Part shown: piece by piece, positions 6,834 through 35,418 of the stretch
Position numbering within the stretch: the first letter of the stretch is position 1
How the letters are laid out: every line of letters starts with the position of its first letter
Source: Clostridia bacterium
GTDB lineage: Bacteria; Bacillota; Clostridia; Christensenellales; Aristaeellaceae
Length of the DNA stretch: 35,590 bases
Direction of reading: 5' to 3'
Assembly (NCBI GenBank): GCA_017448975.1
Contig: JAFSKN010000005.1
Span: 1-35,590, forward strand
Made by a program: the position numbers and the translations under genes
Notes under the pieces: generated by a model
Database searches by the model: none
Told to the model about the DNA's origin: nothing
What the model saw: the letters and a program-made list of their open reading frames with translations, nothing else

Positions 6834-7114
6834 GCTTCTGGCCTAAGAAAGCCGGGATAATCCCAGGGAAAAAGCTCGCTTTTTCCTAAGGGATTATTCC
6901 CCGGCTTTCCCCGGATGCAAAGCATCCGGGTTGGCCGCCAAAGGCGGCCGGGCCAGAAGCACAACGTCGGCAAGCCGGACCATTTCTTTCAAGCAACAGC
7001 GGAAAGTTGCCTTTTAACGTGTCAAGCTTATTCCGCGAGTGAGGGTCCAGGGAGGTCACCTCCCTGGCGCGGGGTCTGGGGCCGCGGAGGCCCCAGGATG
7101 ACCAAACCCCTACA
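6834..7114 (+). repeat. Four-way-junction intergenic repeat, copy 1
   Basis: The closing stem GCTTCTGGCC (6834-6843) pairs with 6951-6960. Inside are arm 1 (6848-6908, long, with an inner GGGAAAAAGC/GCTTTTTCC tip), arm 2 (CCGGATGC/GCATCCGG, 6911-6929) and arm 3 (GGCCGCC/GGCGGCC, 6933-6949). After 86 bases come a hairpin at 7047-7067 (CCAGGGAGGT with its complement) and another at 7076-7096 (CTGGGGCC/GGCCCCAG). The homology with copy 3 ends at CCCTACA (7108-7114). No coding capacity is credible here. It fills the gap between the HAD gene and the sugar-isomerase promoter. Confidence 0.8.
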
Positions 7115-7131
7115 TTGCAGGGCTAAAGGGC

Positions 7132-7160
7132 TTGTCATTTCCCGCGATACAGCGTATACT
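7132..7160 (+). promoter_or_regulatory. Promoter of sugar-isomerase-like gene
   Basis: TTGTCA (7132-7137), a 17-base spacer and TATACT (7155-7160), 32 bases before the GTG start. It begins 17 bases after the end of repeat copy 1. Confidence 0.7.
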
Positions 7161-7192
7161 GGAACAGAAAAACGGGGAATCGGGGTGAGAAG

Positions 7193-8014
7193 GTGCGCCG
7201 TGTGCTTTGCTCCACAGGAGCGCTGATCGGCAGGCCCAACGGGCGGGATTACCGGCTGCTCAAGGGCTGCGCGGAAAACCTGCGCTGCGACGGGCTGGAA
7301 TTCATGATGTACGATTCCTGGTACGATCAGGCGGAGGACGTGGCCCGGTTTCTAAAGAATTTGAACCTGCCCATCCCGGTGATGCACTGCGAAAAGAGCA
7401 TTGGCGAGGCTTTGAGCCAGGGACCGGGGGAAGCCTGGGACCGGGCCATGGAGCGCTTTCAAATCAATTGCCAGCTGGCGGCGTTTTTAGGCGCGGACAG
7501 ACTGGTGACCCACCTGTGGAACGGACCGACCTCCGATCAGCGTTTTACATGGAATCTGCGCGCTTATCCGCAATTGAAAGCCACGGCGGAAAAGTGCGGG
7601 ATCGATCTGCTGATCGAAAACGTGGTGTGCGCCCAAAGCGATCCCCTGACCCGGTGGAAGGAGATTTTGGCCGACGATCCCAAGGCCCATTTTGTTTTCG
7701 ATACCAAAATGGCCGCTTTCCACGGGCAGATGGAAAGCCACTACGCCCCGGAAAACCGCTTCCTGTGGACGGACGGGCACATCCGTCACCTGCATGTGAA
7801 CGATTACGGCGGGGGCTATATGGACTGGAAGCGCCTGGGCACCCTGCATCCAGGACAGGGCATCGTGGATTTTGAAACGCTGTTTTCCTTTCTCGCGTCC
7901 CTGCCCTATGCGGGGGATTACACGGTGGAGGCCACGTCTTTCCTGCCGGACGGCGTGATTCATTGGCAGGACTTAAACCGCACGTTTGCGTTCATTCGCG
8001 CGCTTGATCGATAG
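7193..8014 (+). CDS. Sugar phosphate isomerase/epimerase-like TIM barrel protein
   Basis: A 273-residue protein of the AP-endonuclease-2-like TIM barrel superfamily, which includes xylose-isomerase-like sugar epimerases. Visible features fit a metal-binding barrel: DGLEFMMYD near residue 33, VMHCEKS near 63, VTHLWNG near 105, LLIENVV near 139 (Glu ligand), FVFDTKMAAF near 167 (Asp) and HLHVNDYGGG near 200 (His/Asp). VEATSF near the C-terminus provides the last Glu. The start is a GTG after GGGGTGAGAAG. It has its own promoter and is followed after 12 bases by the AAA+ gene, so the two are probably co-transcribed. The substrate is unknown. Confidence 0.82.
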   Translation: MRRVLCSTGALIGRPNGRDYRLLKGCAENLRCDGLEFMMYDSWYDQAEDVARFLKNLNLPIPVMHCEKSIGEALSQGPGEAWDRAMERFQINCQLAAFLGADRLVTHLWNGPTSDQRFTWNLRAYPQLKATAEKCGIDLLIENVVCAQSDPLTRWKEILADDPKAHFVFDTKMAAFHGQMESHYAPENRFLWTDGHIRHLHVNDYGGGYMDWKRLGTLHPGQGIVDFETLFSFLASLPYAGDYTVEATSFLPDGVIHWQDLNRTFAFIRALDR

Positions 8015-8026
8015 GGGGGGAAGAAC

Positions 8027-9085
8027 ATGGACCGCAAGGACGAAATCATCCAATTGCAGAATGAAATCATGCAGGGGCTGTTAAAGCAGCGGATGCAGCT
8101 CATCGGCGAGGATTTGTGGGGCTTGAAACCGGCTGGCATGCCCACCGTTCCCGGAACGGAAGAAAAGCCGGGCTCCGCCGATCCTGCCGCAAAGACGGAA
8201 AAAAAGAAAGAAGAAAAGGCGGAGCAGGCGGACAAGGAAGAACCCGCCGAAAGCATTGAAGACCTGAAAAAGGAACTCCACGGCTATATCGGGCTGGATC
8301 GGATCAAGGACGAGGTGGACAGCCTGATCAACTGGATCGAAATCTGCAAAGCCCGGCAGCAGCACGGCCTGCCTACGCCCGATTTGGCCTTGCATATGGT
8401 GTTTTCCGGCAATCCCGGCACGGGCAAAACCATGGTGGCCCGGCTCATGAGCCGCATCTACAAGAGCTTGGGCGTGCTTTCCAAGGGCCATCTGGTGGAG
8501 GTGGACCGGTCCGGCCTGGTGGCGGGCTACGTGGGCCAGACGGCCATCAAAACCGCCGAGGTGATCGAAAAGGCCATGGGCGGCGTGCTGTTCATCGACG
8601 AAGCCTATGCCCTCACCAACCGGGACGGCAGCGATTACGGTCTTGAGGCGGTGGACACCCTGCTCAAAGCCATGGAAGATCACCGGGACGATCTGGTGGT
8701 GATCGTGGCGGGGTATACGGAATTGATGAAGGAATTTGTGGAATCCAACCCCGGCCTGGAATCCCGCTTCAATCGCTTCATGTTCTTCCCGGACTACACC
8801 GTGGAGGAAATGACGGGCATTTTCACCATGCGCTGTGAAAAGAGCGGCTACACCCTGGAGGACGCCGCTAAGGATACCCTGAAGGACATCCTGACCCGGG
8901 AAAGCAGGGACATCGAAAGCTTCGGCAATGCCCGGGGCGTGCGCAACCTGTTTGAAAAGGCCATCGCCGCCCAGGCGGACCGGCTTTCCGCGGGCAAAAC
9001 GGAAATCACTAAGGAATCGCTCATGTGTTTGACCCGGGCCGATTTGCTGGCCGCCGTGGGGGAAAAGGAAACGGAGCAGGGGTAA
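8027..9085 (+). CDS. CbbX/SpoVK-type AAA+ ATPase
   Basis: A 352-residue protein. Residues 1-80 hold a short helical start and a charged, Lys/Glu-rich linker. Residues about 85-340 are one AAA+ domain: Walker A GNPGTGKT (128-135), a pore-loop-like GYVGQT (167-172), Walker B VLFIDEAY (187-194), sensor-like VVIVAGY (224-230) and the arginine-finger segment SRFNR (246-250). This matches the CbbX/SpoVK family, hexameric remodelling ATPases of the cytoplasm. No RuBisCO or sporulation gene lies nearby, so the client is unknown. The start follows a GGGGGG tract, 12 bases after the upstream stop. Confidence 0.9.
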   Translation: MDRKDEIIQLQNEIMQGLLKQRMQLIGEDLWGLKPAGMPTVPGTEEKPGSADPAAKTEKKKEEKAEQADKEEPAESIEDLKKELHGYIGLDRIKDEVDSLINWIEICKARQQHGLPTPDLALHMVFSGNPGTGKTMVARLMSRIYKSLGVLSKGHLVEVDRSGLVAGYVGQTAIKTAEVIEKAMGGVLFIDEAYALTNRDGSDYGLEAVDTLLKAMEDHRDDLVVIVAGYTELMKEFVESNPGLESRFNRFMFFPDYTVEEMTGIFTMRCEKSGYTLEDAAKDTLKDILTRESRDIESFGNARGVRNLFEKAIAAQADRLSAGKTEITKESLMCLTRADLLAAVGEKETEQG

Positions 9086-9237
9086 GAAACGTATCGCAGA
9101 CAGGGGATGGCCTCGCCTTTCCTGTTATCTGGTGGCTTTATTCATGAAAGAGCCGCGCGTATCGATTGATGAATGCTGAGAAGCTTCCCATAAGATGAGT
9201 GTGGAGACTTCAAAAAACGATGTATGGGATTATTAGT

Positions 9238-10602
9238 ATGAAGAACAAAACTACGAAAAAAATGGCAATCGTATTCGCGGTCACACTGGCCGTCATCGGC
9301 ATCGTCTTTGCTGTGAACGTGATCAATGTAAAATCGTATAACAATATGGTGCATTGCGCGACGTATTCCGGCACCGCGTTGTTTTCAGAGAATGCAAAAT
9401 CGGGCGATATCTCTGTAAGCGCTATCCCCCGGGGCAGTTCCTGGACGAAAGCCTTTGATCTCAATAACGAGGGCCTGAAAGAGCATAATTACCAGGCCTA
9501 TACATACGATATTACTGTTTCAAACAACACCAAGGACGAAGTCCGGTCTTACTCTTTCAAGCTGACATTTGGCAAGCAGGTGTTTCTCCTCTCCGGGTGG
9601 AATGGCTCTGTCGAGATCCACCAGAAGGTGAACGGCGGCGAGTTGGTTTCCAGTATTCCTGATCTCCGCGACTATAAAGCGTCCGAATACGCGGTTAAAA
9701 CAGTAGTCTTTGACGGGGATACGCTGATCTCCATGAAGCCTGGAGATTATCTCGTTTATTACCCCAGCACCAGCGATAACGCGGTCGAAATGCCGATCGC
9801 TCCGCACGAAGGCACTGTACCGGGCTTTATTCTGTATACCGAGATCGGGACGGACATTGGGGACTCTACCCTGGAGATCAGTTACAAATTTCACAGGGTG
9901 CTGACGACCGAGCCCTTGTTCTGGATATCAGCCGGTGCCATGTGTGTTTGGCTGATCGCGCTGATCATTTTCGTGATCACCTCAGCGAAGATCAGGAAAT
10001 ACAGGCTGCGGCACGAACGTGATAATAAGATCATCAATGAATCCATTGAAACCTTTACGGGTTTTATTGATGCAAAGGACCCCTATACAAACGGCCACTC
10101 AAAGCGGGTTGCGAAATATACCCGGTTCATTGCGGAAAAAATGGGTTATGAGGGAGAAGAACTCGACCGCATCTATTACGTGGCGCTCCTGCATGACTGC
10201 GGAAAAATCGGCGTGCCAGATAACATCCTTGGCAAGCCGGGCAAACTGACGGATGAAGAATTCCAAATTATTAAATCCCATACGGTACGCGGCGGGGAAA
10301 TCTTGGATCACTTCAAAAGCCTCGAAGGTGTGAATGAAGGCGCGCTTTATCATCACGAAAGGTACGACGGCAAAGGCTACCCCAAAGGGCTGGCAGGCGA
10401 GGATATTCCCCTGATCGCAAGGATTATCTGTGTTGCGGACTCCTTCGACGCCATGAATTCAAACCGGGTTTACAGGAAAAAGCTTACCAAGGAGTACATT
10501 CTCAATGAGATTGAGTCCAACAAGGGCCGCCAATTCGATCCGGCGGTGGCGGATGTGATGCTGAAGCTGCTGCGCAATCCCGATAACCTTCTCGATTTCT
10601 GA
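9238..10602 (+). CDS. Membrane HD-GYP domain protein with extracytoplasmic sensor
   Basis: About 454 residues from the ATG at 9238 (alternatives: ATG 9220 and GTG 9199; ribosome sites are weak for all, and 9238 gives a clean MKNKTTKK membrane anchor). Residues about 9-28 are a transmembrane segment. Residues about 30-220 are extracytoplasmic and look like a carbohydrate-binding CBM2-like sandwich (YDITVSNNT, LTFGKQVFLLSGWNGS, MKPGDYLVYYPS); this assignment is inference. A second transmembrane helix (about 226-247) leads to an HD-GYP domain with GHSKRVA, HDCGK near 319, HHERYDGKGYPKG near 371 and VADSFDAM. HD-GYP proteins with HHE and GYP motifs usually hydrolyse cyclic di-GMP. Stands alone between neighbours. 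Confidence 0.88.
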   Translation: MKNKTTKKMAIVFAVTLAVIGIVFAVNVINVKSYNNMVHCATYSGTALFSENAKSGDISVSAIPRGSSWTKAFDLNNEGLKEHNYQAYTYDITVSNNTKDEVRSYSFKLTFGKQVFLLSGWNGSVEIHQKVNGGELVSSIPDLRDYKASEYAVKTVVFDGDTLISMKPGDYLVYYPSTSDNAVEMPIAPHEGTVPGFILYTEIGTDIGDSTLEISYKFHRVLTTEPLFWISAGAMCVWLIALIIFVITSAKIRKYRLRHERDNKIINESIETFTGFIDAKDPYTNGHSKRVAKYTRFIAEKMGYEGEELDRIYYVALLHDCGKIGVPDNILGKPGKLTDEEFQIIKSHTVRGGEILDHFKSLEGVNEGALYHHERYDGKGYPKGLAGEDIPLIARIICVADSFDAMNSNRVYRKKLTKEYILNEIESNKGRQFDPAVADVMLKLLRNPDNLLDF

Positions 10603-10712
10603 CCGGGGGCCAAGGGAGATCGCCGGGAATGCAACCGGCCTTGGACCGAGAAATAAAAAAATCATCCCAGTAAGAAGCTCTCCCCACTCTCCCCACTGGG
10701 AAAAGGAAATGC

Positions 10713-10741
10713 TTGACCATTCCTTCCTCCCGTGGTATAAT
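10713..10741 (+). promoter_or_regulatory. Promoter of T-box/pheST transcript
   Basis: TTGACC (10713-10718), a 17-base spacer and TATAAT (10736-10741), directly upstream of the T-box leader. Confidence 0.8.
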
Positions 10742-10749
10742 GCCGCCAT

Positions 10750-11000
10750 CGGCCGTGAAGGAGAACAACGCCTCCATTGCCGCGTTTCACGAGAGAAGGG
10801 CCGGCCATGGGCTGGAAGCCGCCCGAAACGCGCGGGGGAAATTCGCTCCGGAGCCGCGAGGCTGAATACTCAGTAGGCCCCGCCGTATGCCCGCGTTAAG
10901 GGATTCGCGAGAGCGGCATTTTTTCCGATGTCGCTGAAATTGGGTGGTACCGCGTGCGCCTATCACGCCCCATGACGTTTGTCATGGGCGTTTTCATTTT
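10750..11000 (+). ncRNA. T-box leader of pheS-pheT
   Basis: A leader of about 250 bases with the conserved T-box bulge GGGTGGTACCGCG at 10942-10954. It is followed by a terminator stem (10965-10976 with 10981-10991) and a T-rich tail. Upstream lie the GAGAGAAGG segment of stem I and AATACTCAGTAGGC, typical of the linker elements. A candidate Phe specifier TTC is at 10842-10844. Uncharged tRNA-Phe should stabilise the antiterminator and allow pheST expression. The T-box class is certain from the bulge; the specifier position is my reading without folding. Confidence 0.9.
10965..11000 (+). terminator. T-box regulated terminator
   Basis: ACGCCCCATGAC (10965-10976) pairs with GTCATGGGCGT (10981-10991) around a 4-base loop and is followed by TTTCATTTT. 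The left arm can instead pair with the T-box bulge region in the antiterminator. It ends just before the AGGAGG site of pheS. Confidence 0.85.
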
Positions 11001-11017
11001 ATAGGAGGAAGATGCAC

Positions 11018-12046: not shown

Positions 12047-12062
12047 GGAACGAAAAGGAACG

Positions 12063-12258
12063 GCGGGAGGAGGCTTTTGAGTCAAAAGCCCCCTCCCGCG
12101 CCCACCCGAAAACCACTTTTGACATAAAAAGCAAAGCAAGGAACAATCTCCTGCTATCACGGGGAACAATGCTGGAAAGCGGCGACGCGCTCCATCCCGA
12201 AATGGTTTTCGGAGGGGGCGCGGGGGAACCGCTTTTGGCACAAAAGCGGTTCCCCCGC
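12063..12258. repeat. Palindromic element between pheS and pheT
   Basis: The first hairpin at 12063-12099 has an 18-base arm with one mismatch. The last at 12220-12258 has a perfect 18-bp stem (GCGGGGGAACCGCTTTTG and its complement) with loop GCA. Both share the plan GCGGG..GCTTTTG / CAAAAGC..CCCGC, but their inner bases differ and stay paired. The middle carries an imperfect inverted pair: CGCGCCCACCCGAAAACCA at 12097-12115 and the region 12200-12222. The last stem ends 19 bases before the pheT start. It is unlike the four-way-junction repeats in sequence but similar in style. Confidence 0.75.
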
Positions 12259-12277
12259 AAGAAAGAGAGGGATTTTT

Positions 12278-14668: not shown

Positions 14669-14679
14669 GCGAAGATCTC

Positions 14680-14701
14680 AGGGGCCTCCGCGGCCCCTGA
14701 T
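14680..14701 (+). terminator. Hairpin after pheT
   Basis: CAGGGGCC and GGCCCCTG pair around TCCGC, starting about 11 bases after the pheT stop. Only a short T-poor tail follows, so termination here is likely but not certain. Confidence 0.5.
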
Positions 14702-14739
14702 TCCGCAGCCTCAATGGTCGCAACTCCCCCTCATGGGGA

Positions 14740-14860
14740 GATTGCTCCCTTTCGGCTGATCTCACCGCCGATGAGATTCCCGCCACAGGCGGTCATCGGC
14801 GGTTCGCCCCTGCGGCAGGGGACTTCGCCCCCTGCACCCCATCCGGCGATCAAGAATCGC
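14740..14860 (+). repeat. Left hairpin module of intergenic repeat, copy 2
   Basis: Contains a nested palindrome (CCGCCGATGA ... TCATCGGCGG with inner CCGCC/GGCGG, about 14767-14807) and a GCAGGGG..CCCCTGC hairpin. The same module, reversed, lies at about 35490-35590 beside repeat copy 3. It is absent beside copy 1, which has other hairpins there. Confidence 0.7.
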
Positions 14861-14906
14861 ACAAAAATAAACAATATGCGCTTGCTTGGGAAGAATTATA
14901 CAGCAA

Positions 14907-15074
14907 GCTCCTGGGCAAAGAAAAACGAGGTATATGCCAGGGAAAAAGCGAGCTTTTTCCTGGTCATATCCTCGTTTTTCAGGTGCGCTTTGCGCACCAA
15001 TGGGCGGCTTTGCCGCCCGCCCAGGAGCGATAATAAGCGACCTGGAGATGGGTCCAGGGAGGGAACCTCCCTGG
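14907..15074 (+). repeat. Four-way-junction intergenic repeat, copy 2
   Basis: Closing stem GCTCCTGGGC (14907-14916) pairs perfectly with 15019-15028. Arm 1 is 14920-14980 (GAAAAACGAGG outside, GGGAAAAAGC/GCTTTTTCC tip), arm 2 is GGTGCGC/GCGCACC (14982-14998) and arm 3 is GGGCGGC/GCCGCCC (15002-15018). A CCAGGGAGG/CCTCCCTGG hairpin follows at 15054-15074. The order and sizes of the arms match copies 1 and 3 although most stem sequences differ. Confidence 0.8.
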
Positions 15075-15085
15075 TTCGGGGGTAT

Positions 15086-15112
15086 GGGGGCTGAAGAAGC
15101 CCCCCTGTTTTT
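15086..15112 (+). terminator. Terminator between pheT and metH
   Basis: A GGGGGCT/AGCCCCC stem with a short loop, followed by CTGTTTTTT. Its T run makes it a plus-strand terminator. It lies directly downstream of the metH stop, which reads the other way, so it may shield metH from pheT read-through. Confidence 0.65.
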
Positions 15113-21612: not shown

Positions 21613-24600
21613 TCATGCGTTGGGGTCGTTGCTGTCGTACAGGTCCTTATAGCGTTCCGTGCGGCGGACACGTTTCCTGGGGGCGGCCGGCGCTGCCTCG
21701 CCATTCTGGGCAGGCATGCTCTCCGGGCTGAACGGGCCTGTTTTGCTCTGAGGGTTCAGCTGCTGGGCGCCGCCCGCCATGGGGGAGGGCCTGAAAGCCT
21801 GAGATACCGGGGCAGACGGTTTCATTTTACCGCCGATGGGGTATCCTGTCTTTGGCTGACCGGCAGAACGGTCGAAGACCTGCGTGCCCTGCGGATAGGA
21901 AGCGTTGTCCCGCCGCGGGGGCTGATATTGCTGCGTGGACTGCCGCACAGGCTGATACGCGTTGGCCGCGCCCTCTTTTGCCTGCTGCGGAGCCGCGCCC
22001 ACGGGAGGATAAATCCCGGTGCCCTGAGGCGTGCGCTGCGCGGTCTGCGGTTCGCCGGCGTGGGGCGGGATAAAGGCCGCGTTGGGATTGTTGGGATATG
22101 TGGGACGGGCCGGAATCTGGCCAGGAGTATTCTGGGGCGTGCGCAGCTGGGGACGATTGGGAGCGCTGCGCGCGGCGCGGGCCTCCTGCATCAGTATTTC
22201 CTCCCTGCGCATTTCATTCTGCCTGCGAATGTAAGCGTAGTATGCTCCGCCGGCGCCTATGACGAGTAAGCCAGCCATAACCCAAGGCCAGGGAGAGGCT
22301 AACTGCTGCGTATTGCTTTCAAGGGAGATCGCGTCTTTGTCCGGCACCACCGGGGCGATTTCCGGGGTGGGTGTGGGGGAAGGCGTGGGAGAAGGCGTCT
22401 CAGTGGGCAGCCGTTCCGGATCCGGCGTGGGGGTGGAGGGATTGAAGGGCTCGTAGGAAGCCGTCAGAGCCGGATTCTGCCACACGGTCTTGTTGTAATC
22501 CTCCACCGGCTGAATCTGGCTGGTATCAGCGCCGGACGTGGTATCGTTGCTGCTGGCGTTCATGTATTCGCTGCTCTGGAGGAAATCGGACAGCTCGCCA
22601 AGCGTGAGCACATGGAAGTAATCGCCGCGGATATAGCCTTCCACGCCGCCCTGGCTGATGTGATACCAGGTGCCTTCGTCGTTGATGACGGTGCCCATGA
22701 CCAGGGCGAAAGCGTAGTTGTCCAGCAGGCGGATGGCGTTGCTCTTTTTGGTGGTGGGTTCGCTGCGCAGGTTCACACGGCCGCTGCTGCTCATCACGTG
22801 GCCGTAGCTGCTCAGGCTGCTGTCGGTCACAGACACGGGCGTGGGCGCGGGCGCGGCGGAGGGCGTGGGCGTACCGGCGGCGAGGGTTTCTTCATAAACC
22901 AGGATTTCTTCCGCGCTCATCATGCGCAGCTGATCCTGGCGGATGTAGCCCCACGTGCCGTTGTACTGCACCAGATGCCAGGCGGCGCCGCCCGCGTATT
23001 GCTGGCCGTACACCTGTGCAACTGCCATATAGGGCAGCAGATCGAGGATTTCGCCGTTGGTATCCGGGAAATTGCGCATGGGCACGCCGTTGCCCAGGGT
23101 CATGGCAAGGCCTTCGGTCTGTTCCAGCACAGGGACAGTGGGCGTGGGGGTGGGCTGCAGCTGATCCAGATAGAACCGCGCTTCTTCGACGGAGATGAAC
23201 CGCAGGGCGGACTGAAGAACGAAGCCGCGGCTGCCGCTGCCAAGAACCTGCACGAAATCCCAGATGACGCCGTCCACATAGGTTTCACTGTCGACCTGAA
23301 GCAGCGTATCTGTGGGCAGCATATCGATGGGAGTATCCACATTCTCACGCAGCGCCGTCCGCGCGGTTGTGATGGCGTAGCCTCGATAGGAAGGCATATC
23401 CGTCGGCGCGGCGGTAGGTTCCGGCGTAGGCTCCGCGGTGGGCTCCGCGGTGGGTTCCGCGGTAGGTTCCGGCGTAGGCTCCGCAGTGGGCTCCGCGGTG
23501 GGTTCCGCGGTAGGTTCCAAGGTGGGTTCCGCGGTGGGCTCCGCGGTGGGTTCCGCGGTGGGTTCCGCAGTGGGTTCCGCAGTGGGCTCCGCGGTAGGTT
23601 CCGCGGTAGGCTCCGCGGTGGGCTCCGCAGTGGGCTCCGCGGTGGGTTCCGCAGTGGGTTCCGCAGTGGGCTCCGCGGTGGGTTCCGCAGTGGGCTCCAA
23701 GGTAGGCGCTTCTGCCGGTACAAGGGGAGTCTGCGTGGGCATAGGAGAAGCAAGCTGGGCCTGAATGACGTCGCTTTCTGCCTCGCTGGCTGCCTGGACG
23801 AATTCTGCCATCATGTAGCCGTCAATTCCATTGTAGCATATGGAGTACCATTCCACGCCGTCCACGGTCAGGGGTTCATAAATCCATACACGGCTGTTCT
23901 TTTTCACTTCGCAGATTATTCCCGCGTTCTTGCTGGTGTTCCTGCGGAAGTTTACATTTTTCAGCGTGGTGCCCCACCGGTCGGTCACCGTGGCTTCGGG
24001 CGCTTCCGTTGCCTGAGACGTAGGCTCCGGGGTGGGTTCATAGGTGTAGCTGAACAGGGCGGCGGTCTCCTCTTCGGTGAGGAATCGGATCACGCCTTCG
24101 CTCATGTAGCCCATGACGCCGTTGATTTCCACAGAATACCAAACCTTGCCGTCGCTGTTGGTCACCTTGCCCAGCGCGTGGCCCAGCATGCCGTAGGTGA
24201 CCACCGCCACAATGTTGCTTTCGGCAGTGGAGGGGGTGGAGCGCACGCGAACGGACACGCCCGAGGGATAGAAATAGGCATCCATCGGCGTATCATAATC
24301 CGGAATCTGGGGCGCGGGGGTCTCCGTCGCAAGGGAAGCGTACAGGAATACCACTTCGGATGGCGTCAGATTGCCTTCCGCGTCCAGAACCACGGTGGCA
24401 GAGGTAAAACCGGGAACGGGAACATAATTTGCTTCCAGATCCAGGGGCGGGAGGTCGATGGTGTTCGTACCCACATAGCAGATCCACTGCTGGGGAGAGG
24501 CCACGTCCCGTCCTGTGGCCGCGTCCTGGTAACGGATGGTCACATAGGCGTTGACTTCATTGCGGAAGCGGAAGATCACCTCGGCGGGATAGGCCGCGCC

Positions 24601-27102
24601 AGTGTTGTCCACGGCCACATAGACCGCCGGGTCGGACGCCAGCTCATAGCCCAAGCTGCCGTCCACCTGTGCCCAGTCCACTTCCACCTTGTTTTCCTGG
24701 CCTTCCACGCAGGTGGCGGAATAGGAATAGAACACTTCTTCCTTGGGGGAAAGATACTTAACGTTCACCAGCGCCACTTTGGGAGCCGCGGGCTCCGTGA
24801 CCAGGCGATAGGCAAAGAAGATTTCATCGGGATCGGGGCCGTTTTCGTCCGCATGCACGATGGCGGTCTGCGGCCCGTCAGGCAGGTAGCCGTCGATCAG
24901 GTCCGTAGGCGCGGCGGTGATTTCGGTATCGCCTAAGCCGCACCACACCATGCCGGGAGAAGCCACTTCCGCTCCGTCCGGATCCACATAGCGCACGTAC
25001 ACCACGAAGGGTCCGGGTTCCGGGGTGGGTTCAGGCACATCGGTAGGCGCGGGTTCCTCAACGGGCTCCTGGGTGGGTTCGGCGGTGGGTTCCGGAGTCG
25101 GTTCAAGCGTGGGTTCGGCAGTGGGCTCCTGAGTGGGTTCCGCCGTAGGCGCCACGTATTGATACAGGAACACGATTTCGCTCAGGTTGGCTTCGCCGTC
25201 GGCGTTCACCGTGACGTAAACAGTGGAATCATCCAGCAGCACGTAATCCGGCAGCAGGTTTTCCGGCGCGGCGGTAACGGGCGTTACGGCGTCCAGGGGC
25301 AAAGTGACCGTGCCGCGCAGCGCCACGTCCGCACCGGTTTCCGCGTCGAGATACAGGACAGGCAGAACCGGCGGTTCGGCGGGTTTGTATTCATAGATGA
25401 AGGTGATTTCGCTGGGATACGCCCCGTTGGCGTCCATGGAAACGGTCTTGAATTCGTCATCGTTCTCTGAAAGGAAATACCTGGAGAGGAGATGCTCAGG
25501 CTGCGGGAAGATCACATAATTTCCTTCCGCATAAAACCATTGCTCTGAATCGTCCGCCACAGGCATTCCCTGGGGATCGGTGTAGTGAACGGTCACAAGA
25601 GCGGGTTTTACTTTGCGGGGATAGGTAAAGGTGACTTCGCTTACGCTGCCGCCATCCAGGCTCACTGTCAGGGAATAAGAGGCGGGCTGCGCGGGCTGGT
25701 AATCCTCACCGGATACAGCGGCGGCCGGGAAAATTTCATGGCTGCCTTCACCGAAGGTGAGGATATCGTCCGGCGCGATGGTTTCACCCTGATCGTCCAC
25801 ATAATGCACGGTCACGTCCACAGACTGCACCAGCCGGCGGTAGGTGAAGGTGATTTCCGCGGGAGAAGCCCCGTCGGCGGTGACGAAGACTTCATACCAT
25901 TTGGGAGAGGCGGACTCATACAACTCGAAGGAAATCGCGGCGGCGGGGTATACCCGGCTGGAGCCGGGCTGAACAGTCTGCGTCATATCCTCGGCGATCC
26001 GGTTTCCTTCCTCGTCCACATAATGGATCAGGATATTGGCGGGCATCACATCCCGGAAATACCGGAAAGTAACTTCGGCGGGAAACGCGCCCTCGGCGGT
26101 GACGGTCACGGCCGCGTCGCCGGTCCCTTCTACGGTGTAATCGGCGATGGCCGGGGCCAGCAGCACGTGTGTGCCGCCCGCTAAGGTGGTCACGTCGTCC
26201 GGCATCAGCGGCTCGCCGTTTTCATTTACATAATGCACGGTAACGCTGGCCGCGGCCACCTTGGGGGCATAGGTAAAGGTGACTTCCGCGGGGGCTGCGC
26301 CGGTTTCGTTTACGGTGACGGTATACTGGTCGCTGCCGGTGAGCGTGTATCCGTCGATGGCGGGGGCGAATACCTGGTGCTGACCCGCGTCGTAGATATA
26401 ATTCTGATCTGGGAGCAGGGAATTGCCGTTTTCGTCCACAAAATGCACGGCCACGTTGACGGATACAGTGATACGGGCATAGGTAAAGGTCACCTCGGCG
26501 GGATTCGCGCCCGTTTGATCCACGGTAACGGGATACGAATCGGCGCCGGTCAGGGTATAGCCCTCGATGGACTCGGCGGATACGGTGGAGACGCCTTCGC
26601 CGAAGGTCATGGTCTGATCAGGCAGCAGGCGATAGCCGTTTTCGTCCACGTAATGGACGGTGACAGGGGCGGGAGCGATTTCGGCCTGCTGGGGAAGCGG
26701 CTGATAAGAAATGTACAGCGAATAAACCGCCACCCGTTCGCCCGCGGCGTTATAGCCGTAAATGTTTATGCAGGGCTGATCCAGGCTGCCCATGGCGTCC
26801 GTTACGTATTCCAAAAGCGCGTCCTGGCCGGGCTCGAAAGCAGCGATACTGCCGCTCAGATCGCTGATATTCAGGGAAAGGCCGGTCAAGGGCGTTTCCG
26901 GGGACAGAACGAGCCAGAAACGGGTTTCTTCCGGCGCATCGGTGACGGGCACGGCGGGAGCGCTCCATTGCATCCCGCCGTTATCGTCCGTCCACTGCAC
27001 GGAAATGCTTATGTCCTGGGCGGAAACGGCAAAGGCGCCAAAGGGCAGCAGCAGGCAGAATAAAACCAGGAAAATTGAAACGATACGGATGATCCCTTTC
27101 AT
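21613..27102 (-). CDS. Giant envelope protein: MucBP-like and SH3b repeats, membrane anchor, cytoplasmic tail
   Basis: An 1829-residue protein starting MKGIIRIV at 27102 (AGGAGG twelve bases upstream). Residues 1-29 are a signal peptide. About 142-920 hold ten repeats of 65-75 residues like MucBP/beta-grasp adhesin domains (VTVHYVDENG at the start, PAEVTFTY at the end), broken by a Pro/Thr/Glu linker. Five SH3b-like domains follow: about 940-1020, 1040-1105, 1237-1311, 1325-1404 and 1430-1508, with LRENV, VNLRSEPT and GYIRGDY motifs. A PTAE tract lies at about 1131-1232. One transmembrane helix is near 1607-1625. It is followed by about 200 Pro/Gln-rich, probably disordered residues that should be cytoplasmic, ending in a basic RKRVRRTERYKDL. 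There is no LPXTG motif. Likely binds or spans the cell wall next to the CHAP hydrolase; the precise role is unknown. Confidence 0.9.
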   Translation of the reverse strand: MKGIIRIVSIFLVLFCLLLPFGAFAVSAQDISISVQWTDDNGGMQWSAPAVPVTDAPEETRFWLVLSPETPLTGLSLNISDLSGSIAAFEPGQDALLEYVTDAMGSLDQPCINIYGYNAAGERVAVYSLYISYQPLPQQAEIAPAPVTVHYVDENGYRLLPDQTMTFGEGVSTVSAESIEGYTLTGADSYPVTVDQTGANPAEVTFTYARITVSVNVAVHFVDENGNSLLPDQNYIYDAGQHQVFAPAIDGYTLTGSDQYTVTVNETGAAPAEVTFTYAPKVAAASVTVHYVNENGEPLMPDDVTTLAGGTHVLLAPAIADYTVEGTGDAAVTVTAEGAFPAEVTFRYFRDVMPANILIHYVDEEGNRIAEDMTQTVQPGSSRVYPAAAISFELYESASPKWYEVFVTADGASPAEITFTYRRLVQSVDVTVHYVDDQGETIAPDDILTFGEGSHEIFPAAAVSGEDYQPAQPASYSLTVSLDGGSVSEVTFTYPRKVKPALVTVHYTDPQGMPVADDSEQWFYAEGNYVIFPQPEHLLSRYFLSENDDEFKTVSMDANGAYPSEITFIYEYKPAEPPVLPVLYLDAETGADVALRGTVTLPLDAVTPVTAAPENLLPDYVLLDDSTVYVTVNADGEANLSEIVFLYQYVAPTAEPTQEPTAEPTLEPTPEPTAEPTQEPVEEPAPTDVPEPTPEPGPFVVYVRYVDPDGAEVASPGMVWCGLGDTEITAAPTDLIDGYLPDGPQTAIVHADENGPDPDEIFFAYRLVTEPAAPKVALVNVKYLSPKEEVFYSYSATCVEGQENKVEVDWAQVDGSLGYELASDPAVYVAVDNTGAAYPAEVIFRFRNEVNAYVTIRYQDAATGRDVASPQQWICYVGTNTIDLPPLDLEANYVPVPGFTSATVVLDAEGNLTPSEVVFLYASLATETPAPQIPDYDTPMDAYFYPSGVSVRVRSTPSTAESNIVAVVTYGMLGHALGKVTNSDGKVWYSVEINGVMGYMSEGVIRFLTEEETAALFSYTYEPTPEPTSQATEAPEATVTDRWGTTLKNVNFRRNTSKNAGIICEVKKNSRVWIYEPLTVDGVEWYSICYNGIDGYMMAEFVQAASEAESDVIQAQLASPMPTQTPLVPAEAPTLEPTAEPTAEPTAEPTAEPTAEPTAEPTAEPTAEPTAEPTAEPTAEPTAEPTAEPTAEPTLEPTAEPTAEPTAEPTPEPTAEPTAEPTAEPTPEPTAAPTDMPSYRGYAITTARTALRENVDTPIDMLPTDTLLQVDSETYVDGVIWDFVQVLGSGSRGFVLQSALRFISVEEARFYLDQLQPTPTPTVPVLEQTEGLAMTLGNGVPMRNFPDTNGEILDLLPYMAVAQVYGQQYAGGAAWHLVQYNGTWGYIRQDQLRMMSAEEILVYEETLAAGTPTPSAAPAPTPVSVTDSSLSSYGHVMSSSGRVNLRSEPTTKKSNAIRLLDNYAFALVMGTVINDEGTWYHISQGGVEGYIRGDYFHVLTLGELSDFLQSSEYMNASSNDTTSGADTSQIQPVEDYNKTVWQNPALTASYEPFNPSTPTPDPERLPTETPSPTPSPTPTPEIAPVVPDKDAISLESNTQQLASPWPWVMAGLLVIGAGGAYYAYIRRQNEMRREEILMQEARAARSAPNRPQLRTPQNTPGQIPARPTYPNNPNAAFIPPHAGEPQTAQRTPQGTGIYPPVGAAPQQAKEGAANAYQPVRQSTQQYQPPRRDNASYPQGTQVFDRSAGQPKTGYPIGGKMKPSAPVSQAFRPSPMAGGAQQLNPQSKTGPFSPESMPAQNGEAAPAAPRKRVRRTERYKDLYDSNDPNA
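23405..23703 (-). repeat. PTAEPTAEP coding minisatellite
   Basis: About 100 codons of nearly pure PTAE/PTxEP repeats in units of 12 and 18 bp (GGTTCCGCGGTG-like on the plus strand) with only synonymous and a few Ala/Pro/Leu changes. It encodes a stiff linker between SH3b domains two and three. The plus-strand reading (GSAVGSAV) is an artefact. Confidence 0.9.
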
Positions 27103-27154
27103 AACAACACGATGCCTCCTTCGGAAATCATCGAATGATCGCGAAACTACCTCA

Positions 27155-27183
27155 ATTGTATTATAGAATACAATCTGTGTCAA
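27155..27183 (-). promoter_or_regulatory. Promoter and candidate operator of giant envelope gene
   Basis: Minus-strand TTGACA (27183-27178), 17 bases, then TACAAT (27160-27155), 53 bases before the start codon. A perfect inverted repeat ATTGTATT/AATACAAT (27174-27155, 4-base centre) covers the spacer and the -10 box, a position suited to a repressor. It also lies upstream of the divergent Nudix gene. Confidence 0.7.
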
Positions 27184-28797: not shown

Positions 28798-28818
28798 ATC
28801 AGAAAAGGAGGCCTGTCC

Positions 28819-29856: not shown

Positions 29857-29887
29857 CCGTTCTTGTTTAAATGTGAGAAACGCGGTC

Positions 29888-29912: not shown

Positions 29913-29916
29913 CTGG

Positions 29917-29945
29917 TAGACAATCGGCCGGGAGTGTGCTATAAT
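29917..29945 (+). promoter_or_regulatory. Promoter of sugar ABC operon
   Basis: TAGACA (29917-29922), 17 bases, then a perfect TATAAT (29940-29945). The first gene starts at 30029, giving a leader of about 75 bases with AAAAGGAG before the ATG. Confidence 0.75.
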
Positions 29946-30028
29946 AAAGCGACTTTTCGGAAAAAACAATGATCCCTCGCGTTCCTTATTCGGCGGACGC
30001 CGAAAAAAAATAAAAGGAGTGGTTTCCA

Positions 30029-31027: not shown

Positions 31028-31068
31028 TTCCGTTCCGGCGTTCTTTGGCCTGAATAACCAATGAAAAG

Positions 31069-31103
31069 CTGGGTGGGCCGGTTTCCCTGGCTCACCCAGT
31101 TTT
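31069..31103 (+). terminator. Attenuating hairpin between mglB and mglA
   Basis: CTGGGTGGGCC (31069-31079) pairs with GGCTCACCCAG (31089-31099), with one G-T pair, and is followed by TTTT. It lies 41 bases after the mglB stop. Partial termination here would give more binding protein than transporter, as is common in such operons. Confidence 0.7.
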
Positions 31104-31193
31104 CCTAAAGGCAGCGTTTTTCGCAGCGCGCCCGCAGGGCGGACGCGGTGCGAAGGGCACTGCAAACAACTTAAGAAAGGGGGCATTATCCCT

Positions 31194-32705
31194 ATGCCTG
31201 AATACGTTCTGGAAATGACGGACGTAAGCAAATCCTTCCCTGGCGTAAAGGCGCTGGATCATGCGCAGTTAAAGCTGCGCCCCGGCAAGGTACACGCGCT
31301 GATGGGCGAAAACGGCGCCGGGAAATCCACGCTGATGAAATGCATGTTCGGCATCTACAAGATGGACGAAGGGCAGATCAAGCTGGACGGCCAGCCCGTC
31401 ACCATCCACGACCCCATGGACGCCCTGAAAAAGGGCATCGCCATGGTGCACCAGGAGCTGCAGCCCATCCCCGCCCGCACCGTGGGGGAAAACATTTTTC
31501 TGGGCCGCTATCCCCTGAAAACGTTCCTGGGCTGCATCAAAGTGGTGGATCACAAGAAAATGTACGCCGACACCGCCGAATTGCTCAAAAAGGTGCGCAT
31601 GACCTTTGACCCGCACCAGAAGGTGGGCGAGCTGAGCGTGTCGCAGATGCAGAGCGTGGAAATCGCCAAGGCCGTGTCCGCCAACTGCCGGGTGCTGATC
31701 CTGGACGAACCCACCTCCTCCCTGACCGCCAACGAGGTGGAGGCCCTCTTCCGCATCATTGCGGATTTGAAGGCCGAAAACGTGGCCATCGTCTATATCA
31801 GCCACAAGATGGACGAGATCCTGCGCATCGGCGACGACGTGACCATCATGCGCGACGGCAAATACATCGGCACCTGGGAAGCCAAAGACCTGACCACCGA
31901 AAAGATCATCACCCAGATGGTGGGCCGCGAGCTGACCAACCTGTACCCGCCCAAATCCAACGAGCCCGGAGAAGTGGTTTTTGAGGTCAAGGATTTCACG
32001 TCCATCAACCCCCGATCCTTCCGCAACGTGAATTTCCAGCTCCGCCGGGGCGAAATTTTGGGCGTGGGCGGCCTGGTGGGCGCGCAGCGCACGGAGCTGA
32101 TGGAGGGCATTTTCGGCATCCGCAGCCACAGCAAGGGGCAAATCCTCTACAAAGGCAAGGAACTGAAAATCAGCCGCCCCAAGGACGCCATCGATCAGGG
32201 CATTGCGCTGCTCACGGAAGACCGGCGCGGCAGCGGCATCATGGGCGTACTCAGCGTGGCCGACAATATTTCCATCGCCTCGCTGAACAAATATCTGGAT
32301 CACGGCATCGCCATCAACGCCAAAAAGGTGGAGCAGCTGGTGCAGGACAACGTGAAAAAGATGAACATCAAAACGCCGTCCTCCAAAACCCAGATCAAAT
32401 CCCTGTCCGGCGGCAACCAGCAAAAGGTGCTGGTGGGACGCTGGCTGGCCAACAACCCCGACGTGCTGATCTTAGATGAACCCACCCGCGGCATCGACGT
32501 GGGCGCCAAATACGAAATCTACTGCATCATTGCCGATCTGGCAAAAGAAGGAAAGAGCATCATCATGATCAGTTCCGAAATGAGCGAGCTGATCGGCATG
32601 AGCGACCGCATCATGGTCATGTGCGACGGCCGGGTAACCGGTTTTGTGAACGGAAGCGAAGCCACCCAGGAAAACATCATGGCGCTGGCCACGCAGTTTG
32701 AGTAA
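31194..32705 (+). CDS. mglA: Sugar ABC transporter ATP-binding protein
   Basis: A 503-residue fused double ATPase of the MglA/RbsA type that powers sugar import at the membrane. The first half has Walker A GENGAGKST (38-46), a Q-loop MVHQELQPI, VGELSVSQMQSVEIAKA and LILDEPTSSLT. The second half has a degenerate Walker A region (VGGLVGAQRTELMEGIFG), the signature LSGGNQQKVLVGRW and LILDEPTRGIDVG. This asymmetry is normal for the family. The ATG follows AAGGGGG by ten bases. It lies 18 bases before the permease gene. Confidence 0.95.
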   Translation: MPEYVLEMTDVSKSFPGVKALDHAQLKLRPGKVHALMGENGAGKSTLMKCMFGIYKMDEGQIKLDGQPVTIHDPMDALKKGIAMVHQELQPIPARTVGENIFLGRYPLKTFLGCIKVVDHKKMYADTAELLKKVRMTFDPHQKVGELSVSQMQSVEIAKAVSANCRVLILDEPTSSLTANEVEALFRIIADLKAENVAIVYISHKMDEILRIGDDVTIMRDGKYIGTWEAKDLTTEKIITQMVGRELTNLYPPKSNEPGEVVFEVKDFTSINPRSFRNVNFQLRRGEILGVGGLVGAQRTELMEGIFGIRSHSKGQILYKGKELKISRPKDAIDQGIALLTEDRRGSGIMGVLSVADNISIASLNKYLDHGIAINAKKVEQLVQDNVKKMNIKTPSSKTQIKSLSGGNQQKVLVGRWLANNPDVLILDEPTRGIDVGAKYEIYCIIADLAKEGKSIIMISSEMSELIGMSDRIMVMCDGRVTGFVNGSEATQENIMALATQFE

Positions 32706-32723
32706 ACGAGGGAGGCAAAAAAG

Positions 32724-33737
32724 ATGGAAAAGAAAAACCAAAGCATTGGCGCTAAAATCTGGGCGGTTGTCAAAGGCAACCCCATCGTCATCCTGCTGCT
32801 CATCGCCGCCGTCGTCGTGGGCTTCCTGAAGGATAACTTCGTTTCCTGGGCCAACTTCGGCAACCTGATGAGCAATACTGCCGTGCGTTTCCTGATCGCC
32901 CTGGGCGTCAGCGGCTGTCTGATCACCAAGGGCACCGACCTGAGCGCGGGCCGTCAGGTGGGCTTCGCCGCCGTTGTGGCGGGCATCCTGTGCCAGCGCG
33001 GCGATTATTCGGGCCGCCTGTGGAAATGGGCCCCTGAAATGAGCATCGGCGTGGTGCTCCTCATCGTGGTCGCCCTGGGCCTGTGCTGGGGCTTGATCAA
33101 CGGCCTGATCGTGACCAAGCTGCACGTGCCTCCCTTCATCGCCACCCTGGGCACCCAGACCATCATTTACGGCATCTCCCTGGTGATCTCCGACGCCCAG
33201 CCCATCGGCGGCTTCCAGAAGATTTATACCAGCCTGATCAATGGGCGCATCGGCAACGTGCGCGGCTTCCACCTGCCCTATCTGCTGTTCGTGGGCCTGG
33301 TGCTGGGCATCCTGTTCTGGTTCATCTACAATAAAACCCGCCACGGCAAGTACATGTACGCCATCGGCGGCAACGACGTGGCGGCTGAGGTCAGCGGCGT
33401 GAACACCACCAGCACCCTGATGGGCATTTACGTCACCGCGGGCGTGATGTACGCCATCGCCGGTTATCTGCTGGCGGCCAAGTCCGGCGGCGCTTCCGCC
33501 TCTATGGGCCAGGGCTACGAATTGGAAGCCATCGCGGGCTGCACCATCGGCGGCGTATCCACCACGGGCGGTATCGGCACCGTGCCGGGCATCCTGGTGG
33601 GCGTGCTGGTGTTTGAACTGCTCAAGATCATTCTGCAGTTCTTAGGCGTGAACCCCTATTACAACTACGTGGTGCAGGGCCTGGTCATCGTGCTGGCCGT
33701 GTCTCTGGACATCCGCAAGTACATCGCCAAGAAGTAA
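32724..33737 (+). CDS. mglC: Sugar ABC transporter permease
   Basis: A 337-residue MglC/RbsC-type permease with about eight to ten membrane helices. Typical features are GTDLSAGRQVGFAAVVAG, NGLIVTKLHVPPFIATLGT, RHGKYMYAIGGNDVAAEVSGVNT and IGGVSTTGGIGTVPG. The calcium loop in the binding protein and the calling pattern of this trio point to galactose or methyl-galactoside. GGGAGG lies eight bases before the ATG. Its stop codon overlaps the start of the next gene. Confidence 0.95.
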   Translation: MEKKNQSIGAKIWAVVKGNPIVILLLIAAVVVGFLKDNFVSWANFGNLMSNTAVRFLIALGVSGCLITKGTDLSAGRQVGFAAVVAGILCQRGDYSGRLWKWAPEMSIGVVLLIVVALGLCWGLINGLIVTKLHVPPFIATLGTQTIIYGISLVISDAQPIGGFQKIYTSLINGRIGNVRGFHLPYLLFVGLVLGILFWFIYNKTRHGKYMYAIGGNDVAAEVSGVNTTSTLMGIYVTAGVMYAIAGYLLAAKSGGASASMGQGYELEAIAGCTIGGVSTTGGIGTVPGILVGVLVFELLKIILQFLGVNPYYNYVVQGLVIVLAVSLDIRKYIAKK

Positions 33738-34003
33738 TGAAAAACACCGCGAAAAAAGAAAAGGAACTGGAGGCCAGGGAGCGTGCCCTGCGGGAAAGAG
33801 AGCAGGCCCTGGAAAAGCGGGAAAGGGAATTAAGCCCCTTCTCCCAGGCCATCAAGATCAAAAAAGAAGAGTGGTACGATAAGGTGAAGCTGACCGTCCG
33901 GCAGATGGACGTGATCATCTGGATCGTATACGCCCTGCTGGCCGCGGTGATCGTGCTGATCGTGCTGGAGGCGACGGGGGTCTATAAACTTTTCGGACCG
34001 TAA
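33737..34003 (+). CDS. Small coiled-coil membrane protein coupled to mglC
   Basis: An 88-residue protein whose ATG overlaps the mglC stop (TAATG), so it is probably translated by coupling. Residues 1-34 are an extremely charged helix (KEKELEARERALREREQALEKRERELS), likely a coiled coil. Residues about 58-80 are a transmembrane helix (VIIWIVYALLAAVIVLIVLEA). I recognise no family. Its place as the last gene of the sugar operon suggests a role with the transporter, but that is inference. Confidence 0.75.
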   Translation: MKNTAKKEKELEARERALREREQALEKRERELSPFSQAIKIKKEEWYDKVKLTVRQMDVIIWIVYALLAAVIVLIVLEATGVYKLFGP

Positions 34004-34005
34004 AA

Positions 34006-34040
34006 AGCGGGGCTGTTGCGAATGCAGCAGCCCCGTTCGT
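34006..34040. terminator. Bidirectional terminator between mgl operon and AEC transporter
   Basis: CGGGGCTGTTGC (34008-34019) pairs with GCAGCAGCCCCG (34024-34035). On the minus strand it is followed by CTTTTT, a good end for the transporter gene; on the plus strand only TTCGTGT follows. It sits between two converging genes. Confidence 0.75.
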
Positions 34041-34055
34041 GTACCCGGAGGACGG

Positions 34056-34985
34056 TCAGCCGATCACCGCCAGCAGCACGAAGCCCAAAAGCGTGACCAC
34101 GGTGGACAGGGAAAGCACGGAGGAAAGGTATACCCGCTGCTTTTCGTCCGTGGAGAAAACGGGCAGCACGTAGGGCGGCGGCAGCAGGAACATGAGCCAC
34201 ACCGCCCGATCCCATTGGGCCTGGGGCCAAAGCAGATGGAACAGGCCCAGCACGGCGGCCCCCAGGACGGCCATGATCACAAGCCGCAGGCCCACCGCTT
34301 TCAGCGCTTCCCTCCAGGGAATATCCCGGAATACCAGATCATAGCCGATCGCCAAAAGGATCAGGGCGCTGACAGGGGCGGAAATAAAGTCCGTGCAGGC
34401 ATCCAGCACTCCCGCCGCGCCGGAGGGGATCAGCGCCCGATAGATACCCGTCACCCCCAGCAGCACGCCTGTCAGGATCGCTAAAATAATGGGGGAGAGG
34501 GCCATTTCCCGGAACAGTTGCTTTAAATCAGGCTTTTCCTTACTGTCCATGCCCAGCAGCAGCTTGTACAGCGTGAAAACGAACAGCACCTGCCCCAAGT
34601 CGATCCGGGCGAAGTCCGCCAGCCGTTCAGCGCCGTACAGCAGCGTAAACAAGGCGTATCCAAGCATGCCCGCCTCAAAGCCGGTGGTGAGGAAGGGAAG
34701 GAAGCGGTTTTCCATGCGCAGCGCTTTGCCTGAACACTTTCCCAGCAGCCAGGCCAGAACGCACAGCAAAAACATGATCAGCGGCACCACCAGCGTAGCC
34801 AGGGAATATTCCGCCGCCGCGAAGGTATGCAGCAGCACGGCGGGCAGCCCGATCTGCACCGCAACGTTTTTCAGCGCGTCAATGCCCGCCCGGTCCATCA
34901 GCCGCTTTTTCCGGCACAGGATGCCGATCAAAAGCATCAGCACCACGGGCAGAACGATGCGCAGCACTTCTGAAAAACGAGCCAA
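34056..34985 (-). CDS. Auxin efflux carrier (AEC) family transporter
   Basis: A roughly 310-residue membrane protein of the auxin-efflux-carrier family, which in bacteria moves small organic anions such as malate. It has two five-helix halves: LRIVLPVVLMLLIGILCRKKRL, VQIGLPAVLLHTFAAAEY, FEAGMLGYALF, then ALSPIILAILTGVLLG, FISAPVSALILLAIGYDL and FLLPPPYVLPVF. I prefer a TTG start at 34985 because GGGAGGGAAAGG precedes it and the hydrophobic part begins there; the longer frame to 35063 would start at the promoter. Expression seems to depend on a MerR-type promoter. Substrate unknown. Confidence 0.82.
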   Translation of the reverse strand: MARFSEVLRIVLPVVLMLLIGILCRKKRLMDRAGIDALKNVAVQIGLPAVLLHTFAAAEYSLATLVVPLIMFLLCVLAWLLGKCSGKALRMENRFLPFLTTGFEAGMLGYALFTLLYGAERLADFARIDLGQVLFVFTLYKLLLGMDSKEKPDLKQLFREMALSPIILAILTGVLLGVTGIYRALIPSGAAGVLDACTDFISAPVSALILLAIGYDLVFRDIPWREALKAVGLRLVIMAVLGAAVLGLFHLLWPQAQWDRAVWLMFLLPPPYVLPVFSTDEKQRVYLSSVLSLSTVVTLLGFVLLAVIG

Positions 34986-35028
34986 AGCCTTTCCCTCCCG
35001 CGACCGCTTCCGTCTGCCGTTCCATGGG

Positions 35029-35057
35029 TTGACAACGGCACGGGTCTGTGATAGGAT
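35029..35057 (+). promoter_or_regulatory. Plus-strand promoter of truncated regulator
   Basis: TTGACA (35029-35034), 17 bases, then TAGGAT (35052-35057), reading toward the short frame at 35121. The TTAGAGT dyad just downstream would sit at the early transcribed region, where a bound regulator could block it. Confidence 0.55.
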
Positions 35058-35058
35058 C

Positions 35059-35089
35059 ATCATAATCCTTAGAGTTTACTCTAAATCAA
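35059..35089 (-). promoter_or_regulatory. MerR-type promoter of AEC transporter
   Basis: On the minus strand TTGATT (35089-35084), a long 19-base spacer, then TATGAT (35064-35059). The spacer contains the perfect dyad TTAGAGT-AA-ACTCTAA. A 19-base spacer with a central dyad is the hallmark of promoters activated by MerR-family regulators, which twist the DNA to align the boxes. Confidence 0.75.
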
Positions 35090-35120
35090 CCGGTTGAGAA
35101 GGAGAAAACGAAGGTTACGC

Positions 35121-35240
35121 ATGAATTATAAATTGGGATTTGTAGGGAGGGCCACCCTGGGGCCTCCGCGGCCCCAGACCCCGCGGCAGGGGATGATCCC
35201 CTGCACCCTCTCCTGCGGATATTACCTGACGCGGAAATAA
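35121..35240 (+). pseudogene. Possible 5' remnant of a MerR-family regulator gene
   Basis: The frame starts MNYKLG, six bases after GAAGG, divergently from the AEC gene and beside a MerR-type operator. MerR proteins often begin this way. After six codons (35140) the sequence turns into repeat copy 3 (TGTAGGG onward), and the frame then continues only as repeat-derived codons to a stop at 35240. I infer that the regulator gene was cut off by the repeat or a deletion at its edge. Six codons are weak evidence for family membership. Confidence 0.4.
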
Positions 35241-35418
35241 AGCAGTTTCCCGCTGTTGTTTGAGGGAAACGGCCAAGCTTGCTACCGTTGTGCTTCTGGC
35301 CCGGCCGCCTTTGGCGGCCAACCCGGATGCTTCGCATCCGGGGAAAGCCGGGGAATAATCCCTTGGGAAAAAGCGAGCTTTTTCCGGGGGATATTCCCGG
35401 CTTTCTGGGGCCAGAAGC
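35141..35418 (-). repeat. Four-way-junction intergenic repeat, copy 3 (inverted)
   Basis: Inverted relative to copies 1 and 2. Closing stem GCTTCTGGCC (35292-35301) pairs with 35409-35418. Arm 3 is GGCCGCC/GGCGGCC (35303-35319), arm 2 CCGGATGC/GCATCCGG (35323-35341) and arm 1 35344-35404 with the GGGAAAAAGC/GCTTTTTCC tip. On the other side lie GCAGGGGAT/ATCCCCTGC (35187-35204) and CTGGGGCC/GGCCCCAG (35157-35177), matching the tail of copy 1, and the end TGTAGGG at 35141. Confidence 0.8.

Follow-up and report, generated by a model that had tools for sequence, protein, structure and literature searches.

We describe here an intergenic repeat family, referred to as E, recognized in a 35,590-nt stretch of DNA (the window) from a Clostridia bacterium of the family Aristaeellaceae; the window is contig C36 of the 80-contig metagenome-assembled genome (MAG) G000 (3.08 Mb, 85% complete). 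By comparison of PheT, its nearest named relatives are rumen Christensenellaceae/Clostridiales MAGs (L032 and L048 at 96% identity, the latter a partial sequence, and L033 at 95%). We consider it probable, though well short of certain, that E moves as a non-autonomous DNA element, about 400 bp long and resembling miniature inverted-repeat transposable elements (MITEs), with inverted two-hairpin ends and a central four-way-junction palindrome whose fold is kept at the DNA level. A first-pass annotation, made from the sequence alone, had offered a non-autonomous mobile element as one option, and the high copy number, lineage-specific stems, varying occupancy of orthologous sites and inverted ends reported below bear it out: E behaves more as a small mobile DNA element than as a classical RNA gene. 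We would class it as a new family of MITE-like elements built around a cruciform core, whose mode of movement we infer.

A 281-bp DNA query against the own genome gave at least 40 long matches. The first-pass annotation, which knew three copies, had proposed a covariance-model search of the whole genome, and this search (its model trained on 23 copies of the 126-nt core) returned many more, namely 67 copies on the proper strand in the 3.08-Mb MAG at E-values of 1.2e-13 or below (150 of 2840 first-look candidates were scored). Sixty-five of them span the whole model and two are truncated by contig ends; the other 67 model matches, with E-values up to 0.01, mostly fall in the same places on the opposite strand, about nine weak ones lying elsewhere, several at contig ends. 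The complete element runs, in order, through a tip (in many copies), an outer hairpin A, an inner hairpin B, a left linker, the four-way core, a right linker, B', A', and a tip, and a comparison of the flanks of the 67 copies showed that its two ends, with two hairpins each, are inverted copies of one another in plan. Two core subfamilies occur in the own genome: one has the closing stem GCTTCTGGCC; the other, a minority of nine copies, has GCTCCTGGGC, and its right linker is short. Both linkers are similar in sequence among copies and have no covarying consensus fold; folding them with RNAalifold returned five pairs, almost invariant, for the right linker, and passed over an AGGCG/CGCCT stem that had been noticed by eye in the left one.

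The terminal tips are of two types, AACACTTTAAGTC (tip 1) and CAAATTGGGATTTG (tip 2). With at most one mismatch, the tip-1 pattern has 46 matches versus 3 for a reversed control, and with at most two mismatches the tip-2 pattern has 50 versus 1. At least 33 of the 46 tip-1 sites lie near contig ends (300 bp or less separates at least 16 from the start of a contig and at least 17 from its end), all 33 facing outward off the contig. Of 12 tip-1 loci that were read, 11 continue into end hairpins of the E type; the remaining one leads to a different inverted repeat. As such a concentration is expected of young identical repeats, the genome probably holds more than 67 copies, with the most similar copies breaking the assembly.

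In the window, the first-pass annotation had described three copies, each closed by a 10-bp stem and bearing one long arm that ends in GGGAAAAAGC/GCTTTTTCC and two short arms whose loops have 3 bases, and all three are present on this plan, with stem sequences varying as it described. Its coordinates covered only the middle and right part of each element, and the further hairpins that it mentioned exist and are now identified as the inverted ends of E. Whole elements extend over ~6706-7097 (E1), ~14679-15105 (E2) and ~35129-35590 (E3, truncated by the contig end), and a second, inserted module, M, is present in E2 and E3. The parts of the three copies are as follows.

6706..6726, + strand: E1 left outer hairpin A (direct reading, compared with other copies)
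6735..6755, + strand: E1 left inner hairpin B (direct reading, compared with other copies)
6834..6960, + strand: E1 four-way-junction core with closing stem P1, long arm P2, and short arms P3 and P4 (direct reading; covariance model, 138 bits)
6961..7046, + strand: E1 right linker, alike in sequence among copies, without a covarying fold (copy comparison)
7047..7067, + strand: E1 right inner hairpin B' (direct reading, copy comparison)
7076..7096, + strand: E1 right outer hairpin A' (direct reading, copy comparison)
14679..14699, + strand: E2 left outer hairpin A, starting 10 bases past the pheT stop codon (direct reading)
14702..14813, - strand: module M lodged between E2 hairpins A and B, edges approximate (M search)
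14815..14835, + strand: E2 left inner hairpin B (direct reading)
14907..15028, + strand: E2 four-way core, subfamily with closing stem GCTCCTGGGC (direct reading; covariance model, 84.5 bits)
15054..15074, + strand: E2 right inner hairpin B' (direct reading)
15086..15104, + strand: E2 right outer hairpin A', shortly followed by TGTTTTTT (direct reading)
35129..35142, - strand: E3 terminal tip, type 2 (TAAATTGGGATTTG on the + strand; tip reading and search)
35150..35191, - strand: E3 right-end hairpin region (direct reading)
35292..35418, - strand: E3 four-way core (direct reading; covariance model, 135 bits)
35494..35590, - strand: E3 left end including a partial module M, truncated at the contig end (direct reading)

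Evidence for mobility comes from orthologous sites in the three nearest species, compared by hand. A core is present in 6 of 17 site-by-genome comparisons; two of these six are damaged and three stand in the opposite orientation. This count leaves out, for contig breaks or changes, window copy 2 and C34:3257 in G135 and C34:5950 and C34:9283 in G140, as well as the site C64:23635 altogether, the sites C34:1116, C34:3257 and C34:5950 in G125, and matches in G136 and G094. Apparently empty sites in relatives, which had been suggested as a check, do occur, and E is variously present, absent, reversed or replaced. Window copy 1 is absent in G135, and in G140 and G125 its site holds other inverted-repeat elements, the one in G125 having ends (GGACGCTTTAAATCA ... 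TGACTTAAAGTGTT) that resemble tip 1. G125 (L048) retains window copy 2, which is damaged in G140 (L032); at this site in G135, the 702 bases that remain before the contig ends contain no core. The copies at C34:5950 and C64:37208 correspond to gaps of 14 bp in G135 and 12 bp in G125, respectively, and remnants of E without a core remain in G140 at C34:3257 and in G125 at C64:38524. In G135, E has the same orientation at C64:38524 and the opposite one at C34:9283, C64:37208 and C34:1116, the last being damaged there by M. At one further site, G140 and G125 carry E in opposite orientations and with different linkers, which suggests separate insertions; the own genome has no E there.

Two observations concern what else occupies such sites. 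Another inverted-repeat element, made of heptad-like repeats (AGGAGGT / GAGAGTG types) and with ends sometimes like tip 1, uses the same kind of intergenic site (in G140 and G125 at the site of window 6695-7190, L215 and L216; in the own genome at C28:124618, L317; and in G140 at L259 and L262). In G125, a cytosine-methyltransferase-like gene and a second gene, by appearance a restriction-modification pair (L257, G125:C133:8900-11250), lie in the gap matching the own copy at C34:9283.

The fold itself varies between lineages in sequence and not in plan. In a sample of 120 genomes of the family (own included; stricter filters, 29 candidates scored per genome), the core model found E in nine, i.e., five own-genus genomes (five having been drawn from the 29 listed for the genus), three of genus g12, and G055 of g10, and gave no match in G009, another g10 genome; 91 genomes without a match in this sample are known as a total, not individually. 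All eight same-genus genomes scanned, including the own, contain E, and three further species of the genus have 35, 41 and 72 model matches at E-values of 1e-6 or below, some places being matched on both strands. The closing stem GCTTCTGGCC of the own genome is also mostly that of G125, G135, G140 and G094, GCTTCCGGGCA closes 7 of 9 cores in G011 and all six in G105, GCTCCCGGGCA closes 6 of 8 in G056, and several kinds occur in G030, G069 and G115. Stems are lineage-specific while the fold stays the same. No match to E was found on phages or plasmids at distant sensitivity, and no title or abstract opening that we found in the open-access literature on such repeats names the family. Around one E copy, G115 and G069 are 99.9% identical over 3.1 kb (L146, L152), possibly a shared contig or a recent exchange. 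A contig of ~3.4 kb common to these two genomes was suspected of being an autonomous element and rejected, E lying there between two large reading frames with local tandem E ends.

Covariation was measured in an own set (66 of the 67 copies, that at C75:18 being left out) and in a relative set, a selection of model matches from 11 genomes; both alignments were fitted to the model and so lean towards the structure, although the short arms and closing stem are evident by eye despite this. Among 96 distinct relative cores, 97.0% of cells pair and 47 of 51 pairs show two-sided changes, with a covariation score of 0.594 versus 0.185 in shuffled and at most 0.112 in slid alignments; the own genome alone shows two-sided changes in 31 of 51 pairs. 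In the statistical test that the first-pass annotation had called for, none of 500 shuffles matched the observed value on any pair-count measure; this and the 67 model matches put the observation well outside chance. That annotation had argued from compensatory change that the fold is selected, as RNA or as extruded DNA. The strong covariation holds up; the view that it shows selection as RNA is not supported by the mispairs and hairpin tips, which point towards the DNA level. A fold selected as RNA should give G-T intermediates in excess of A-C on the transcribed strand. In P1, P3 and P4, with three duplicate rows included, the two sets together have 31 G-T and 25 A-C mispairs (binomial p 0.50, the cells not being independent), and the own copies 10 and 14; wobble pairs are rare in these clean stems, which consist mostly of strict Watson-Crick pairs. 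Among 165 cores, 111 have readable long-arm tips (TC 61, GA 21, TT 13, AA 13, and 3 others), and none of these reads CT or AG; since TC and GA are present and CT and AG absent, the tips invert. The whole long arm is inverted in 2 of the 165 cores, standard in 75, and not classifiable in 88. Template switching in DNA replication yields such inversion patterns and can maintain stems (PMC8794818). Because G-T and A-C are similar in the clean stems and the tips invert, the fold is more likely kept at the DNA than at the RNA level.

As to placement, 51 of the 67 copies could be scored on both sides by a crude longest-reading-frame rule, and lie between convergent (21), co-directional (29) and divergent (1) neighbours, so that 50 of the 51 lie behind at least one gene. 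Gene pairs in the window, counted by eye as a rough baseline only, are ~3 convergent, ~2 divergent and ~15 co-directional. The orientation of E relative to co-directional genes varies (17 versus 12). Repetitive extragenic palindromic sequences (REPs) prefer a similar placement behind genes (PMC3733652). The claim that all window copies lie between genes holds for copies 1 and 2, which are flanked by Pfam-matched genes; copy 3 shows a single flanking gene, as it is truncated by the contig end.

Of the 67 own copies, 16 carry module M (~106 bp) inside an end hairpin or between end hairpins, in both orientations (17 matches, three of them M nested in M), and in at least 4 of 12 other places read (L361, L364, L365 and L366) M splits a different palindromic repeat. 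M seems to prefer hairpins. Among 32 genomes, five have M and belong without exception to the own genus (G000, G094, G140, G125 and G135); it was detected neither in G030, G069 and G115 of the same genus nor in the 24 other-genus genomes tested. At least two further palindromic intergenic repeat families lie near or around M (own places L357-L368), one with GGGGGAAACCATTCTTTGG arms and one of the form TTCGCGGGGGG..CCCGCCCGCG.

Measured against what defines a MITE, E has inverted termini, with tips on many copies, and is dispersed in 67 copies whose orthologous sites vary in occupancy; regarding coding capacity, a conserved reading frame was sought only via stop-to-stop frame lists. A transposase acting in trans and reading the ends of E would move it. 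The fold would be kept in DNA, single-stranded or cruciform, during transposition or replication rather than as a working RNA, and template-switch repair of the arms may help to keep it. Copies inserted in promoters would be lost, leaving the survivors behind genes.

Several results weigh against this. The relatives alone lean towards RNA in P1, P3 and P4 (G-T 21, A-C 11), and the long arm P2 has more G-T than A-C (122 versus 59), although a single pair at an ambiguous position supplies 61 of the 122, and leaving it out gives 61 versus 45. TT and AA tips are both complements and reverse complements of one another, so only TC/GA distinguishes inversion from other change. Inspection by eye of copies having both tips, and of near-empty sites, revealed no evident target-site duplication. 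Given the rapid turnover of intergenic DNA in these genomes, some of the apparently empty sites may instead reflect deletion; the G125 gap at C64:37208, for instance, also lacks other upstream bases. Finally, no transposase or autonomous copy was found, with Y1_Tnp as the sole transposase family searched and many copies at contig ends.

Among other explanations, a minor share of our confidence goes to a fold maintained by mutation alone, in which template switching corrects quasi-palindromes with no selection on the fold. The similar G-T and A-C counts, the mostly strict Watson-Crick pairs and the inverted tips would suit it, and the process has been described for RNA genes (PMC8794818). However, all four stems, including a closing stem spanning ~105 nt, keep the same order in cores of three genera, whereas under mutation alone arms should also arise and vanish freely. 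We hold it marginally less probable again that E is a structured RNA element dispersed over the genome (a 3' untranslated region terminator, a stabiliser, or a trans-acting RNA) with its fold selected as such, an option that the first-pass annotation had left standing. The very strong covariation, the G-T lean of the relatives, and the close approach of the last hairpin of E2 to a T run fit an RNA; with 50 of 51 scored copies downstream of a gene, many are probably transcribed, and the intergenic bcr repeats of Bacillus cereus are often found within mRNAs (PMC3446304). Yet wobble in the pooled clean stems hardly exceeds A-C, the tips invert, and orientation to co-directional genes is mixed and differs among sister species. 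Rfam gave no match in the window, and in four E loci the sole match above the gathering threshold is a tRNA outside E; the first-pass annotation had likewise recognized no named family.

Less probable still, we think, is a shape-recognized mobile element, in which the extruded junction and end hairpins would be the substrate of a structure-specific recombinase or of a junction-cleaving enzyme, whatever their sequence; if true, this would explain the near-total replacement of base pairs with the fold kept, the inverted elements and arms, and the nesting of M in hairpins of E and of other palindromic repeats.

The REP type suggested by the first-pass annotation, moved by a REP-associated tyrosine transposase (RAYT, Y1), is very improbable: E is palindromic, intergenic, high in copy number, and placed behind genes like REPs (PMC3733652), but the transposase search found Y1_Tnp in 4 of 12 E-bearing (two of the four barely above the cut-off; none detected in the other 8) versus 5 of 20 E-lacking genomes, and the single Y1_Tnp gene of the own genome (L031 1111-1875) is flanked by copies of a non-E palindrome like AACACAGAGAACCGTCCCCTGTGTT, perhaps that gene's own REP. 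A link between RAYT and E was rejected on these 32 genomes, which show no association with Y1_Tnp.

The MITE-like element that we favor has partial counterparts among known repeats. Like bcr1-bcr18 of B. cereus, E is non-coding, intergenic and high in copy number, with several families per genome, secondary structure and mobile-element features; unlike them, it has a conserved four-way junction, hairpin-built inverted ends and no evident target duplication, the fine structure of bcr not having been compared (PMC3446304). With REP/BIME/REPIN sequences (PMC3116915, PMC3733652) it shares inverted hairpins, convergent or co-directional placement and lineage-differing sequence, whereas it is ~400 bp long rather than a short hairpin doublet and has no Y1_Tnp association. 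With IS200/IS605-type single-strand transposition (cf. PMC6006769) it shares subterminal hairpins and, as far as seen, the lack of a target duplication; it differs in its tipped inverted repeats, and 8 of the 12 genomes with E gave no Y1 gene that would match.

Elsewhere in the window, at 21613-27183 (- strand) and 311-1229 (+ strand), two further features were noticed: a large surface-type protein (MucBP/SH3) whose coding sequence contains a 12-bp repeat array, and four direct repeats of 246 bp in another reading frame.

E explains many of the contig ends of the G000 assembly. It is a bacterial repeat whose four-way junction has kept its fold while nearly all of the base pairs have been exchanged in one lineage or another, and it carries signs that this is a DNA-level process. 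Strong covariation alone is no proof of a functional RNA, and E cautions against that inference; as a natural bacterial system, it lends itself to tests of template switching and of cruciform biology.

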